A stretch of 64,000 nucleotides of DNA, taken from NCBI RefSeq assembly GCF_022768985.1, contig NZ_JALEKL010000009.1, forward strand, positions 310,001 to 374,000, written 5' to 3'. Positions 34,898-42,784 of the stretch are shown here, one piece after another (position 1 is the first letter of the stretch; each line of letters starts with the position of its first letter). A program made the translations under genes and the position numbers. The notes under the pieces were generated by a model. It was not told the DNA's origin, did no database searches, and saw only the letters and a list, made by a program, of their open reading frames with translations. The DNA comes from Methanosphaera sp. GTDB lineage: Archaea; Methanobacteriota; Methanobacteria; Methanobacteriales; Methanobacteriaceae.

Positions 34898-36517
34898 ATG
34901 ATAATAAAAGGAAATATTTTAAATGTATTTACAGATGAAATATATCCAGCAGAAATAAAAATTGAACATGGAATAATCCAGTCAATAAAAGAAGTAAATA
35001 AGTTTTTTAGTGATATAATAGTTCCAGGATTTATAGATTCACATATTCACATTGAAAGTACACAACTTACACCATCAAGATTTGCAGAAATTGCACTAAG
35101 ACATGGAACAACATCAGCTATTATTGATCCACAAAAAATTGCAAATGTCATGGGTATTAATGGTATTGAATATCTTATACGTGATGCAAAATACAGTCCA
35201 CTAAATTATTATTTTACAGCACCACCATGTATTAAAGCAAATGAATTTGAAACAAATGGTGCAACACTAAAAACTTCAGATGTTGAATATCTTCTTAAAA
35301 GAAAAGAATTTGTAGCACTTGGTGAAGTTAAGGATAAAAAGGGTGTTATTGAAAAAGATAATGATATTATCTCAAAAATCAAGTTAGCTCATAAATTTAA
35401 AAAACCTATTGATGGTAAATGTGATAATCTTAAAGATTATGATCTTCAACAATATGCTCGCTGGGGAATTTCAACAGATCATGAATGTAGAAGTCGTCGT
35501 GATGTTGAAGAAATTAAACGTGTTGGTATAAAAGCTATGATTACAGAGGGATCATATACTAAAACTCTTGAGGAATTTGTTCACTCTGAGTGTGACTTCA
35601 TGGTATCTGACACTATTAATTCTGAAGATCTTATAGATGGTCATATTAATCTTATGCTAAGAAAAGCAGTTGATCTTGGTATGGATCCATTTGATGCAAT
35701 AAAGCTTGTTACAATCAATCCTGCACAGCATTATAATATTAATGCTGGTTGTATTGCACCAGGTCGTAAGGCAGATCTTGTATTTATTGATAATTTATCT
35801 AACTTTAATGTAAAACGTGTAATTATTAATGGTAACACTATCTTTAAAAAACAGAAATTATTATATCGTGCAAATCCTAAGGAAATGGAAAATACAATTA
35901 ATATTAAACAGATGAAGCCTGATGAGTTTAATGTTAAAGTTAAAGATCCAGCACAGAAAAGTGCTGTTGTTAATGTTATTAAGATTAGAAATGCAGATAA
36001 GTATACAACAAAAACAACTGCTAAGTTAAATGTTGAAAAATCAAATATTATACCATCTGTATTTGAGGATATCTTAAAAGTTAGTGTTATTGACAGGTAT
36101 GGTCAAAATACTATTGCTAATGGTTTTATTAAAGGATTTGGTATTAAAAATGGTGCTATTGCAACATCTGTAAGTTGTGATTGTAATAATATTGTTGCTG
36201 TTGGTACAAATAGTGATTATATGGCTGATGCTGTAAATAAGCTTCATGAAAATAAGGGTGGATTTGTAGCTGTGTCAAATAAGGAAACTGTTGACTTCCC
36301 TCTTGCTATTGCAGGTCTTATGAGTATGGATCCAGCATCTAAAGTTGCTAAGAAATCAGAACATATTCATGATTTCATAAAATCTATGGGATGTAAACTT
36401 CAAAATGTTTTCACAACACTTTCAAATATTACAAATGTTGACTTTGCAGAGTATAAGATGACAAACATGGGATTGTTTGATGTTAAAGCAGGAAAACTTA
36501 TTGATATTGTAAAATAA
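34898..36517 (+). CDS. Adenine deaminase homologue with altered metal-site residues
   Basis: Amidohydrolase-superfamily protein aligned along its whole length with bacterial adenine deaminases, which convert adenine to hypoxanthine. It keeps PGFIDSHIHIE with His49 and His51, a glutamate in LGEV (Glu143), His195 in STDHE, and Asp238. It differs at several near-invariant places: the DPHE motif reads DPQK (77-80), the DGH-type motif reads DGK (Lys174), TDDR/K becomes SDTIN, and the C-terminal SHDSHN becomes SCDCNN (426-431). AAAGGAG precedes the ATG. It may have altered substrate or activity, so no gene symbol is given. It lies near guaAA-guaAB, which keeps a purine link plausible. Confidence 0.8.
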   Translation: MIIKGNILNVFTDEIYPAEIKIEHGIIQSIKEVNKFFSDIIVPGFIDSHIHIESTQLTPSRFAEIALRHGTTSAIIDPQKIANVMGINGIEYLIRDAKYSPLNYYFTAPPCIKANEFETNGATLKTSDVEYLLKRKEFVALGEVKDKKGVIEKDNDIISKIKLAHKFKKPIDGKCDNLKDYDLQQYARWGISTDHECRSRRDVEEIKRVGIKAMITEGSYTKTLEEFVHSECDFMVSDTINSEDLIDGHINLMLRKAVDLGMDPFDAIKLVTINPAQHYNINAGCIAPGRKADLVFIDNLSNFNVKRVIINGNTIFKKQKLLYRANPKEMENTINIKQMKPDEFNVKVKDPAQKSAVVNVIKIRNADKYTTKTTAKLNVEKSNIIPSVFEDILKVSVIDRYGQNTIANGFIKGFGIKNGAIATSVSCDCNNIVAVGTNSDYMADAVNKLHENKGGFVAVSNKETVDFPLAIAGLMSMDPASKVAKKSEHIHDFIKSMGCKLQNVFTTLSNITNVDFAEYKMTNMGLFDVKAGKLIDIVK

Positions 36518-36595: not shown

Positions 36596-37225
36596 TCATT
36601 CTTTTTTTTGATCTAATATATTTTTAACACTGTTTTCTATTAATTTTAAAGCATCTTGATGTAGATGGTTTCCACACTTTTTAATAAAATTACTACTTGA
36701 TTGTATTTCATTATAAAAACTATTAATATTTTCATAATTCATAAAGTTAACTCGTGAATAATCAACCAGAAAATCAAGTATTTTATATGTTGCACGTGAT
36801 AGAACAGGAAGATCATTACCACTATAAACAACACCCAATATTTTACAAACAATATTTGAAACATGAGTTTTTGAATATGAATCTGAAATATCAGCACCAT
36901 CAACACTTACCACATCCACATCAAAAACAAAAGATGCACCACATAAAGTAGCAGAATTATTCATATAATCTGTATCATCAAGCATTCCAAGAAGTGCTCT
37001 TGTCATTGTATAAATATTTCCCATAAACTGAATTCTAACAAAGCCATTATCATAGATATTTAAAAGTGTTCTATTTTCAAAAAGTCTCATATGAACAAGT
37101 CCATCACTATCAAATGAAATGCCAAATGGCTTACTATTATATGACATATCACTATTTTTTGTTGTAACTATAACTTCATATAAAACATCACAATCAACAT
37201 TAAAACTACCAATTTCTATAGACAA
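36596..37225 (-). CDS. DUF447-family flavin-reductase-like protein
   Basis: 209-residue protein of the DUF447 family, whose members have an FMN-binding split-barrel fold but no settled function. Family-like stretches are YEVIVTTKNSDMSYNSKPFGISF (1-38 region), the RLFENRTLLNIYDNGFVRIQF run (about 47-67), and an alpha-helical C-terminus. The start is TTG at 37225, placed 5 bases after GGAGGA. It is convergent with the adenine deaminase homologue and divergent from guaAA. No partner is evident. Confidence 0.78.
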   Translation of the reverse strand: MSIEIGSFNVDCDVLYEVIVTTKNSDMSYNSKPFGISFDSDGLVHMRLFENRTLLNIYDNGFVRIQFMGNIYTMTRALLGMLDDTDYMNNSATLCGASFVFDVDVVSVDGADISDSYSKTHVSNIVCKILGVVYSGNDLPVLSRATYKILDFLVDYSRVNFMNYENINSFYNEIQSSSNFIKKCGNHLHQDALKLIENSVKNILDQKKE

Positions 37226-37399
37226 AAAAATCCTCCAGCCACTAATTTTTTAGATAATAATAATTAAAAATTTAAATTTTCTATATAAAATATGAAAATA
37301 TTATGATAATTATTATATTTATCTAATTATCATATAATATATTATATAAATCAAAGTAGAAAATAATAGAATATTATTTTAACTTACTTTTTTTAAAAG
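37226..37399. other. AT-rich part of the guaAA upstream region
   Basis: The first half of the 331-bp divergent spacer between the DUF447 gene and guaAA is nearly pure A/T, with many TATA-like strings around 37310-37350. These could drive both the DUF447 gene and a transcript through the hairpin region that follows. No frame is supported. Confidence 0.35.
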
Positions 37400-37525
37400 A
37401 TGATGTAAAACTAAAATACATCATAAAAAAGAATTTCATAGCAATGGAGTAACTTCTTAAATATTAGAAGATTTGCTATAAAAAAGGCGTCTTTCATTGA
37501 ACTTACGCTGAGAAAATAAGTTCAA
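37400..37525 (+). ncRNA. Candidate structured RNA or leader upstream of guaAA
   Basis: Three consecutive inverted repeats lie within 126 bases. Stem 1: ATGATGTA/TACATCAT at 37400-37424 (8 bp). Stem 2: ATAGCAA/TTGCTAT at 37438-37444 and 37473-37479, enclosing CTTCT/AGAAG at 37453-37457 and 37466-37470. Stem 3: TTGAACTTA/TAAGTTCAA at 37497-37525 (9 bp, 11-nt loop), followed by five T residues. Unlike random AT repeats, the arms contain G-C pairs. It could be a leader with an attenuator-like last hairpin, or a separate small RNA if guaAA uses the TATA-like string at about 37528-37535. No known riboswitch consensus was matched beyond a CTGAGA in the last loop. Confidence 0.45.
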
Positions 37526-37556
37526 ATTTTTATATGGAAATTTATGGGAATTTATC

Positions 37557-38123
37557 ATGAGCATTGTTATTATTAATAATTTTGGACAATATAATCACAG
37601 AATATCAAGAACATTAACATATCTAGGTATTGAAAACAAACTTATATCAAATACAACATCAATCGATGAAATAAAAGATCTAAATCCAGAAGGAATCATC
37701 CTTGGAGGAGGACCATCTATTGAAAATATAGGTAATTGTAAGGAAATAATCCAACAAATGGATGTACCAATACTTGGTATCTGTCTTGGTCATCAGATTA
37801 TTGCAGAAGTATTTAATGGAGAAACAAAATCAGCAGAAATTGAAAGTTATGCTCAAATAGAAATTAACATCATAGAAGAATCAGAACTATTCAAGGATAT
37901 GGGAGATTCAGTTAAAGTATGGGCATCACACAAAGATGAAGTTGTAAAACTTCCAGAAAACTTCAAAATACTTGCTAACTCTGATAAATGTAGTATTGAA
38001 GCTATGAAACACAATGAAAAACCAATATATGGTATTCAATTCCACCCAGAAGTACAACATACACCACGTGGTGGAGAAATATTTGAAAACTTCTATAGAA
38101 TATGTAAAGAATATAAAAACTAG
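37557..38123 (+). CDS. guaAA: GMP synthase, glutamine amidotransferase subunit
   Basis: Class I glutaminase that supplies ammonia to the synthetase subunit for XMP to GMP conversion. 188 residues. It keeps the nucleophile motif GICLGHQ (Cys near 77) and the His-Glu pair in FHPEV near 163-165, plus GGGPS near 50. In archaea the two domains are separate genes, as here. No strong ribosome binding site precedes the ATG; GGGAA lies 9 bases upstream. The second subunit gene follows after 21 bp. A structured region upstream may regulate it. Confidence 0.95.
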   Translation: MSIVIINNFGQYNHRISRTLTYLGIENKLISNTTSIDEIKDLNPEGIILGGGPSIENIGNCKEIIQQMDVPILGICLGHQIIAEVFNGETKSAEIESYAQIEINIIEESELFKDMGDSVKVWASHKDEVVKLPENFKILANSDKCSIEAMKHNEKPIYGIQFHPEVQHTPRGGEIFENFYRICKEYKN

Positions 38124-38144: not shown

Positions 38145-39077
38145 ATGTTAATAAATGAAGAAGAATTTATAAAAAATGCAGTAGAAAAAATAAAAGAAGA
38201 AGTAAAAGATGAAAAAGTAATAATTGCACTTTCAGGTGGAGTAGACAGTTCAGTTGCATCAGTACTTGCAGCAGAAGCAATAGGAGATCAACTTGAAGCA
38301 GTATTTGTAGATCATGGACTTCTAAGAAAAGATGAAGCACAACAAGTAGAAGACACCTTCAAAGACAGAATTAAAAACTTCAAAGTAATAGAAGCACAAG
38401 ATGAATTCATAGAAGCACTCGCTGGTGTACGCGACCCTGAAAAGAAACGTGAAATCATAGGACATAAATTTATCGAAGTATTTGAACGTGAAGCTAAAAA
38501 ATCAGGAGCAACATTCCTACTTCAAGGAACAATAGCACCAGACTGGATTGAAAGTGAAGGAAACATCAAATCACACCACAACCTAACACTACCAGATGGA
38601 CTAGAACTTAAAATAATAGAACCACTACGTGAAATCTACAAAGATGAAGTACGTGCAATAGGAAGTGCACTAGGACTACCTGATGAAATAGTACACAGAC
38701 AACCATTCCCAGGACCAGGACTAGCAGTACGTGTACTAGGAGATGTAACACACGAAAAACTAGAAATCTGCCGTGAAGCAAATGCAATACTAAACAAATA
38801 CGTAGAAGAAGAAGGACTCGACAAAGACCTCTGGCAATACTTTGTAGTACTAACAGACAGCAAAGTAACAGGAGTAAAAGGAGACCAAAGAGACTTCGGA
38901 TATCTAGTTGTAATACGTATGGTACAATCATTTGATGCAATGACAGCAAACGTACCAGACATACCATGGCCATTCCTACACAAAGTATCACAAGAAATCA
39001 CAGCAAAAGTACCAGAAATCACACACGTATCACTCTCACTCAGTAACAAACCACCAAGCACAATCGAATTTGAATAG
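38145..39077 (+). CDS. guaAB: GMP synthase, ATP pyrophosphatase subunit
   Basis: Activates XMP with ATP and accepts ammonia from GuaAA. 310 residues with the PP-loop LSGGVDSSV (about 29-37), the substrate loop [29 protein letters not shown] (about 188-203), and the C-terminal [11 protein letters not shown] that closes on GMP. AAAGGGG lies 13 bases before the ATG. From about 38400 the codons are strongly A-ending with CTA, ACA and ATA favoured, unlike the T-ending codons of many neighbours. Cotranscribed with guaAA. Confidence 0.95.
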
Positions 39078-39189: not shown

Positions 39190-39807
39190 TTATACATAGT
39201 ATAATACACTATTCTTATCACCATCTCCACCCCATTCAAGAGTGTTGAAATCTTCATCAATTTTAAGGTCAACCAGTGTTTTATTTAAGTCTGGATGTTT
39301 TTCAAGGAAGTTTATTGCATCAGTCTTCTTCTGATTTGATTGTTTTACAAGTTCATCAACCTGAATACTTGAAGAATTTTTCTGACTATTTAAATTAGAC
39401 AGACTCATTTCACCTTTTTTATATTTTTGATATGCATGCATATATGGGATATATGCCTCTTCATATCTTTTTTCAACTGTTAATCTATCAATTTGAATTT
39501 CAAGATATTGTCGGTATGTTTCATTTCGTGTACTATTTTTAAATTCTTCAAGTACTTTTATTTCATCAGTTGTATTTTTTATCTCCTCTTCTGTTGATGT
39601 AATATCATCTTCTACTTTAATTGTTCCTTTATCCCATTTTTTAACATGAGCAATGTCTGATATATTTTCAATAGTACTTGCAAGTTGTATTGTCTGGTTA
39701 AATTGTTTACGATCCTGTTCATCAAGATAACTACTTGTAGCATAAATTATACCTGCAGCAAGTATTACAACTATTACTACTCCTATTGCTAGTTTCTTTT
39801 TGTTCAT
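39190..39807 (-). CDS. Membrane-anchored coiled-coil protein, copy 1
   Basis: 205 residues. An N-terminal positively charged stretch is followed by one membrane segment (about 6-26, LAIGVVIVVILAAGIIYAT), and the rest is hydrophilic, Lys/Glu/Gln-rich and probably coiled coil, facing outward. No family recognised. It is a clear paralogue of the gene at 39890-40510: matching N-terminus, DEQDRKQFNQTIQLAS, NETYRQYL.IQIDRLT and FLEKHPDLNKTLVDLK. It has no ribosome binding site; a TATA-like TTTAAATA lies about 20 bases before the ATG, so the message may be leaderless. Function unknown. Confidence 0.7.
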   Translation of the reverse strand: MNKKKLAIGVVIVVILAAGIIYATSSYLDEQDRKQFNQTIQLASTIENISDIAHVKKWDKGTIKVEDDITSTEEEIKNTTDEIKVLEEFKNSTRNETYRQYLEIQIDRLTVEKRYEEAYIPYMHAYQKYKKGEMSLSNLNSQKNSSSIQVDELVKQSNQKKTDAINFLEKHPDLNKTLVDLKIDEDFNTLEWGGDGDKNSVLYYV

Positions 39808-39889: not shown

Positions 39890-40510
39890 TTAAGGTATTA
39901 GTTGTATACTATGGTTTTTATCTCCTGTTCCGCCCCATTCTTGGGTATTGAAGTCTTCATCAACTTTTAGATCAACTAGTGTTTTATTTAAGTCTGGATG
40001 TTTTTCAAGGAAAGTTATTGCTTCAGTTTTCTTCTGATCTGTTTGTTTGCTTACTTCATCTTGTTGTGTTTTTGATGAATTTTGACAATGTCTATATACA
40101 GATAGGCTTATTTCATTGTTTCTATATCTTTTATATGCTTTTGTATCTTCTAAACTTAGTTCATGAAATCTTTTCTCAGATGTTAATCTATCTATTTGAA
40201 TTTGAAGATATTGCCTGTATGTTTCATTTCGTGTTTTATTTTTAAATTCTTCCATTACATTAATTTCATTTGTCATATTTTTCAGATGATCTTCAGTTGT
40301 TGTAATATCATCATCTATTTTAATTATTCCTTTATCACACATTCTAACATAGTTGATGTCTGATATGTTTTCCATTGTACTTGCAAGTTGTATTGTCTGG
40401 TTGAATTGTTTTCTATCCTGTTCATCCAGGTAATTATTTGTTGCATATATTATACCAGCTGCAAGTATTACAACTATTACTACTGTTATTGCTAGTTTCT
40501 TTTTGTTCAT
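39890..40510 (-). CDS. Membrane-anchored coiled-coil protein, copy 2
   Basis: 206-residue paralogue of the adjacent gene, with the same single N-terminal membrane segment and a long hydrophilic helical domain. Identity is highest at the two ends; the middle has diverged (for example YRNNEISLSVYRHCQNSS versus YKKGEMSLSNLNSQKNSS). About 40 bases upstream of the ATG also match the first copy, so the duplication included the promoter region. No ribosome binding site. It is divergent from the DUF815 ATPase gene by 67 bp, which may share control. Function unknown. Confidence 0.7.
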   Translation of the reverse strand: MNKKKLAITVVIVVILAAGIIYATNNYLDEQDRKQFNQTIQLASTMENISDINYVRMCDKGIIKIDDDITTTEDHLKNMTNEINVMEEFKNKTRNETYRQYLQIQIDRLTSEKRFHELSLEDTKAYKRYRNNEISLSVYRHCQNSSKTQQDEVSKQTDQKKTEAITFLEKHPDLNKTLVDLKVDEDFNTQEWGGTGDKNHSIQLIP

Positions 40511-41891: not shown

Positions 41892-42102
41892 TTGAATTAT
41901 TTTTCAATTAAAAAGTGTTATTAAATTTATTTGAATTTTTATTTCAAATATTTTTTAGTAACTTTTTTGTGATTTTTGTTGAATTTAGCTAATTTTTAGA
42001 GAAATCCATATGATATTATCCTAATAATTAGTTAAATTTATTTTATTTTTTTTTAAATTATTTTTTATTTTTTGGTGATTTTTGGCTTAGTTTTGCAAAA
42101 CC

Positions 42103-42157
42103 TTTATATACTCAGGGGTACATATTAATAATTGTGGGAAGTTTAGGCAAACCTAAA
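42103..42157 (+). promoter_or_regulatory. Promoter-operator module 1 with DtxR-like palindrome
   Basis: TATA box TTTATATA at 42103-42110 with GCAAAACC upstream as a possible BRE. TTTAGGCAAACCTAAA at 42142-42157 is a 6-bp inverted repeat with a 4-base spacer, placed 39 bases after the TATA start, at or just after the expected transcription start. The palindrome resembles iron- or manganese-responsive DtxR/IdeR/MntR operators (TTAGG...CCTAA). Binding there would block transcription. Confidence 0.6.
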
Positions 42158-42258
42158 TTTAACACAACCATACAATATTAATTTATTGTAGATATTTAGG
42201 ACACTTAAAAAATTATATCCTATGTAATAGAAAAAAATATTTTTTTTATTATCCAACT

Positions 42259-42332
42259 TTTAGGTAAACCTAAATATTTATATACTACTAAAGTATAATA
42301 TATAATTGTAAGAAGATTTAGGTAAAACTAAA
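42259..42332 (+). promoter_or_regulatory. Promoter-operator module 2 with two DtxR-like palindromes
   Basis: TTTAGGTAAACCTAAA at 42259-42274 lies directly upstream of the TATA box TTTATATAC at 42277-42285. TTTAGGTAAAACTAAA at 42317-42332 (one mismatch) follows 40 bases after the TATA start. The stretch from TATA to operator matches module 1 (shared TTTATATACT, ATAATTGT, AAG before the operator), so the module was duplicated 174-175 bases apart. Direction is to the right. No start codon with an open frame follows. Confidence 0.6.
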
Positions 42333-42784
42333 TTTTTCTTAAAATGAGTTAAAACAAGACTATAAAAAAACCCAAAAAAAGTTAAAAAATTGGAAATTTA
42401 ACTATTACAATCCGCACATAAAAGAAATAGTTAAAGCATATTTAAAAAAATCACCTATTATTAAATAAATTTTTTTTAACTAACAACAAAAAAAAGCCTA
42501 TTATAAAATTAACTCATCACTCCTAGTTAAAATAAAAAAAACATAGTATAAACTATAAAAACACAAAAAAGAAAATAAAACCTTATAAAACTCCTAGCAT
42601 CCAGAGTTTTAAAAAATTCCCAAAAATATTTTCTTTCTTGTAATACATACTTTTTTTAATAATTTTTTTTAAAAATCACTTATTTTAAAAACATATTTTA
42701 AATAATTACTACACAAAATTATTTTTTTTAAATAAAAAAAAGAAAATATAAGAAAATTAATCCTTATTTTATTAAATTATTTAC

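Follow-up and report, generated by a model that had tools for sequence, protein, structure and literature searches.

A hairpin-rich insert upstream of guaAA in one Methanosphaera species, possibly carrying a minus-strand small RNA

Genes and hairpins upstream of guaAA

The window, a stretch of 64,000 nucleotides, comes from a Methanosphaera sp. genome of 1.61 Mb in 15 contigs and contains the genes for both subunits of GMP synthase. They are preceded by a DUF447 gene in divergent arrangement, and the 331-bp gap between this gene and guaAA holds the element described here.

36596-37225, minus strand: DUF447 gene (Pfam DUF447_N/C), divergent, following the element when the minus strand is read
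37557-38123, plus strand: guaAA, glutamine amidotransferase subunit of GMP synthase (Pfam GATase, 6.4e-48)
38145-39077, plus strand: guaAB, ATP-PPase subunit of GMP synthase (Pfam GMP_synt_C, 2.6e-31)

GuaAA of the window is 70-82% identical to named Methanosphaera records. An adenine deaminase gene (34898-36517, Pfam Adenine_deam_C) lies near the GMP synthase genes, so that two purine functions are close neighbours in the window. The regions 39190-39807 and 39890-40510 encode tandem similar proteins of about 205 amino acids with a hydrophobic N-terminus, the first of which gave no Pfam match. As judged by eye, a small ORF that lies immediately before guaAA and is divergent from it seems to be present in many congeners (37226-37340 in the window); in the window it seems cut to a few codons, with a minus-strand ATG at about 37331 and then a stop.

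A preliminary description had placed three stems within 126 bases just before guaAA, and all of them were found there. Stem 1 consists of ATGATGTA/TACATCAT (37400-37407/37417-37424), stem 2 has two parts, with ATAGCAA/TTGCTAT (37438-37444/37473-37479) enclosing CTTCT/AGAAG, and stem 3 is formed by TTGAACTTA/TAAGTTCAA (37497-37505/37517-37525), followed by A and five T. By our count, the stems end 31 bases before the guaAA ATG (37557). The five-T tail is present as described, but the T run also belongs to the TATA-like sequence TCAAATTTTTATATG. Small ORFs in the region of the element are limited to minus-strand ones of 21, 28, and 35 codons.

37400-37424, either strand: hairpin C (stem 1), 8 bp, about equal on both strands (-7.1 kcal/mol on minus, -6.8 on plus)
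37434-37483, minus strand: hairpin B (the two-part stem 2), 7 bp on plus, 11 bp on minus with one G.U pair (37437/37480); -11.5 kcal/mol on minus, -8.5 on plus; 2x8 internal loop, 5-bp upper stem, 8-nt loop
37497-37525, minus strand: hairpin A (stem 3), 9 bp on plus, 10 bp on minus with one G.U pair (37506/37516); -7.5 kcal/mol on minus, -5.9 on plus

The place of the element was chosen post hoc. The whole window has 14 perfect hairpins whose stem is 8 bp or longer with 2 or more GC pairs and whose loop does not exceed 12, and two of these lie inside the element; two such hairpins occurred in none of 2000 shuffles of the element. Among the 101 hairpins with a stem of at least 7 and a loop of at most 30, nowhere in the window but at the element do three lie together within 131 nt. 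Even so, several other intergenic tiles have an equal or better fold for their composition: a 60-shuffle estimate gave z -3.6 for the element, and of the 482 intergenic tiles outside it, 15 were as low or lower. When folding energy is regressed on GC content, the plus strand of the element does not stand out, as 514 of the window's 8516 tiles fold better. The element is thus real and moderately, not extremely, beyond chance.

Tiles in another gap of the window (41892-42784) reach fold z-values of about -4 to -5. This gap of 893 bp has no ORFs of 90 codons or more and contains three palindromes, TTTAGG(C/T)AAA(C/A)CTAAA, at 42142, 42259, and 42317 (0.09 expected; 0 of 100 shuffles with three), which adjoin promoter-like TTTATATAC sites. 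Exact copies of TTTAGGYAAACCTAAA are present in 8 of the 20 genus genomes (reversed control 0), in several of them just before a TATA-like stretch, and the two copies of the window's own genome both lie in this gap. The palindromes look like a DtxR-type metal-regulator operator that would drive one or two noncoding transcripts.

An insert found in one species

The regions upstream of guaAA were compared across 20 Methanosphaera genomes, all of which contain the gene. One genome (G011), in which the GuaAA match starts at residue 51, was dropped, leaving leaders from 18 congeners and the window. In 16 of the 18 congeneric leaders, the motif AACTTATTTTA (around ACTTATTTT) lies 29-43 nt before the guaAA ATG; L024 and L036 are without the ACTTATTTT motif. 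In the window, AACTTAC...TTTTAAAAG is found 176 nt before the ATG, the hairpins occupy the gap, and the right flank TATGGGAATTTATCATGAGC matches that of the congeners.

37381-37394, plus strand: AACTTAC and seven T, left flank of the insert and counterpart of congeneric AACTTATTTTA by alignment and spacing
37396-37540, no strand assigned: insert, only in the window species according to motif-to-ATG spacing and the lack of a copy elsewhere; ends uncertain by about 10 bases
37546-37549, plus strand: GGGA, presumed ribosome-binding site of guaAA and right flank of the insert, aligned in congeners

In a tree of 25 GuaAA proteins, the window falls within Methanosphaera, near G007, G002, G013, and G003, although this fork is weakly supported (83/69). 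Since the species is nested within the genus and its spacing is 176 nt versus 29-43 nt, the difference is a gain of about 130-140 bp.

Models built from the plus and the minus strand found no second copy in the species' own genome at E<=1. In the 20 genus genomes, the minus-strand model matched only the element itself at this threshold, and the plus-strand model gave matches in five further genomes with E 0.26-0.81, which we took as chance. The element was absent from the 137 other family genomes among the 138 searched with models of both strands, and from elsewhere in 151 phylum genomes searched with the plus-strand model. With filters off, the window scored 182 bits among 19 guaAA loci, and all others scored at most 17.6 bits (E 0.4). 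DNA searches gave only short AT-rich fragments or the conserved start of guaAA; that of the own genome gave the element itself and one 58-base fragment (E 4.9e-4). The models are single-sequence models, so strongly diverged relatives could escape them, and the spacing argument is independent of them. Taken together, the element is probably a young insert of one species.

The pattern ACTTATTTT...GG...ATG occurs 101 times in the 20 genomes, compared to 83 times for a reversed control, and 12 of the 101 matches are at guaAA. A regulon reading was rejected, as matches elsewhere are at background level and those at guaAA come from 12 of 20 genomes; the ACTTATTTT motif looks guaAA-specific. A conserved hairpin directly upstream of the AACTTA motif (37360-37380, AAAATAATA-GAA-TATTATTTT) is not claimed either. 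In 15 leaders (leaving out the near-duplicates L025 and L032, and L024 and L036, which are without the motif), its summed stem length was 108, compared to a mean of 91.6 in 300 shuffles (sd 5.4, maximum 110). We rejected it because 9 of the 15 leaders failed to surpass about half of their shuffles, and because its 5' arm in the window lies upstream of the presumed transcription start.

The absence from relatives bears directly on the proposal that the element is a purine-responsive leader, perhaps with an attenuator. As it is missing from all 18 readable congeneric guaAA leaders and from the 137 other family genomes, this proposal fails for the genus: by sequence comparison, a conserved guaAA sensor is excluded, and nothing points to a new one confined to this species. 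Rfam covariance models gave no match in the window and no riboswitch match on either strand; at E 10 the element itself yielded only MicA (E 2.5, 17.7 bits versus a gathering score of 41). In Firmicutes, the purine (guanine) riboswitch RF00167 is located upstream of guaA. A structured stretch just before GMP synthase is common to both systems, but the element has no three-way junction, no RF00167 match at E 10, and no conservation with the gene.

An inert or decaying insert, that is, a mobile-element remnant or other palindromic DNA without RNA function, with guaAA expressed through or past it, would agree with its occurrence as a single copy in a single species, with the intact downstream gene, and with a fast intergenic turnover at this place, as the small divergent ORF, reduced as seen by eye, indicates. 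In its length of about 135 bp, its palindromes, and its restriction to a single lineage, the element resembles MITE-like short mobile inserts. Unlike these, it is single copy (one match per strand model in the own genome at E<=1). Neither terminal inverted repeats nor a target-site duplication were recognised at its ends, which are uncertain by about 10 bases. Moreover, decay does not leave fully paired stems with strand-consistent G.U pairs. We consider an inert insert somewhat unlikely. For a phage or plasmid origin, which was rejected, only short fragments were found (E 0.1-0.6 among the matches listed, the best 10 of 12 phage records and 6 of 6 plasmid records), and the exact stem-3 sequence occurred in no viral contig.

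Folding of the two strands

The minus strand of the element (131 nt) folds at -28.3 kcal/mol with z -4.58, none of 200 shuffles being as good, and its centroid structure consists of exactly the three hairpins. For the plus strand of the same length, the values are -23.9 kcal/mol and z -2.77 (3 of 200 shuffles as good), and for 146 nt z -2.22 (3 of 200); in its minimum-energy fold, stem 2 is displaced by a competing hairpin. This better fold of the minus strand in the models, which is new here, arises because 37437/37480 and 37506/37516, which are C.A mismatches on the plus strand, become G.U pairs when the minus strand is folded and lengthen stems 2 and 3 there to 11 bp and 10 bp. An outer G.U followed by at least two more pairs was found in 2 of the 101 window hairpins on the minus strand, hairpin B being one of them, and in none on the plus strand. 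An inner G.U, as in hairpin A, was found in 9 of 101 on the minus and in 14 of 101 on the plus strand. Only two G.U pairs are involved, they were noticed after the fact, and hairpin C favours neither strand; the predicted base pairing, which fits a minus-strand RNA best, is suggestive, not proof.

The preliminary description had also suggested an independent small RNA. If there is one, the models make the minus strand more likely than the plus strand; structure beyond that of shuffles, a criterion for archaeal small RNAs, is found on the minus strand at the values given above. The size range of archaeal small RNAs fits the element. An example of intergenic or cis-antisense RNAs in archaea is sRNA162 of Methanosarcina mazei (PMC3510493). 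The element is likewise intergenic and hairpin-rich and would be antisense to a leader; unlike sRNA162, it is a candidate RNA and an orphan of one species. Other RNA readings were rejected: ARAGORN finds no tRNA in the window that would indicate a tRNA fragment, and C/D-box and H/ACA readings fail by eye (spacing, no kink-turn). Among the matches listed in searches of a partial literature collection, no paper dealt with a guaAA leader or with Methanosphaera small RNAs.

Promoters and possible roles of the insert

Two sites share the best score upstream of guaAA for an assumed BRE/TATA consensus.

37334-37348, plus strand: BRE/TATA-like 15-mer, presumed ancestral guaAA promoter (10 of 12 consensus positions)
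37522-37536, plus strand: another BRE/TATA-like 15-mer, TCAAATTTTTATATG, which shares bases with the T tail of stem 3 (10 of 12 consensus positions)

By eye, a TATA-like stretch is present in congeners at the place corresponding to the first site. Transcription from this site would place the element in a leader of about 185 nt, whereas with the second site the guaAA mRNA would begin close to the ATG or at it. That the GGGA is kept speaks for the first site.

If the right end of the insert had brought the second site as a new promoter, the mRNA would start near the ATG and the hairpins would be untranscribed on the plus strand. The joint best score (10 of 12) argues for this, and its distance from the ATG, about 20 nt, agrees with the 19-22 nt reported between BRE/TATA and start in Methanolobus psychrophilus (PMC5378194). 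However, the GGGA would then fall upstream of the mRNA start, the consensus is an assumed one, the AT content of the region is extremely high, and the TATA stretch ends in a G. A promoter insert is the most doubtful of the explanations considered.

A plus-strand leader of about 185 nt, transcribed from 37334-37348, is improbable as well. Its hairpins would influence how stable the mRNA is or how accessible its ribosome-binding site is, perhaps responding to purines. Besides the kept upstream TATA-like site, the predicted accessibility of the GGGA speaks for it: with 60 or 75 nt upstream folded, the window was the lowest of 19 leaders (mean unpaired 0.17 and 0.13; others at least 0.25), but at 185 nt (0.21) this was not the case, L024 (0.0) and L036 (0.11) being lower. 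Long leaders are also known in M. psychrophilus, where 24% exceed 150 nt (PMC5378194). On the other hand, the plus strand has the weaker fold of the two, with stem 2 displaced, the element is in no congener, neither strand matches an Rfam riboswitch, and a bacterial terminator rule found no terminator-like site.

Our tentative explanation, which is favoured without being probable, is an insert of this lineage that carries a candidate small RNA on its minus strand; the inert insert comes close behind. The analysis shows the insert, that it is missing elsewhere, and that the two strands fold differently; we infer that the element may be transcribed, that this would occur on the minus strand, and that guaAA may be affected. 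In this Methanosphaera lineage, about 130-140 bp of DNA came to lie between the earlier guaAA promoter region and the ribosome-binding site. A small RNA of about 130 nt would be read leftwards, from about 37526 to 37395; as a perfect complement of the 5' leader of guaAA, it could affect this leader in cis, either through pairing or because the two transcriptions collide. By eye, no minus-strand promoter that would start transcription near 37526 was convincing, and the minus-strand TATA-like ATATAAAA would, also by eye, start transcription inside hairpin A. That a newly born, species-specific antisense RNA in the guaAA leader controls GMP synthase in cis is quite unlikely in this full form.

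If the element is not transcribed, it shows that a cluster of hairpins in front of a metabolic gene can be an insert of one lineage, and that the spacing to the start codon across relatives decides this faster than the recall of motifs. If it is transcribed, it would be a datable case in which a structured RNA arose within the leader of a central purine gene of a methanogen, the site being empty in congeners. If the antisense reading is true, we would be seeing a young regulatory RNA shortly after it arose, while relatives still show the ancestral site empty.
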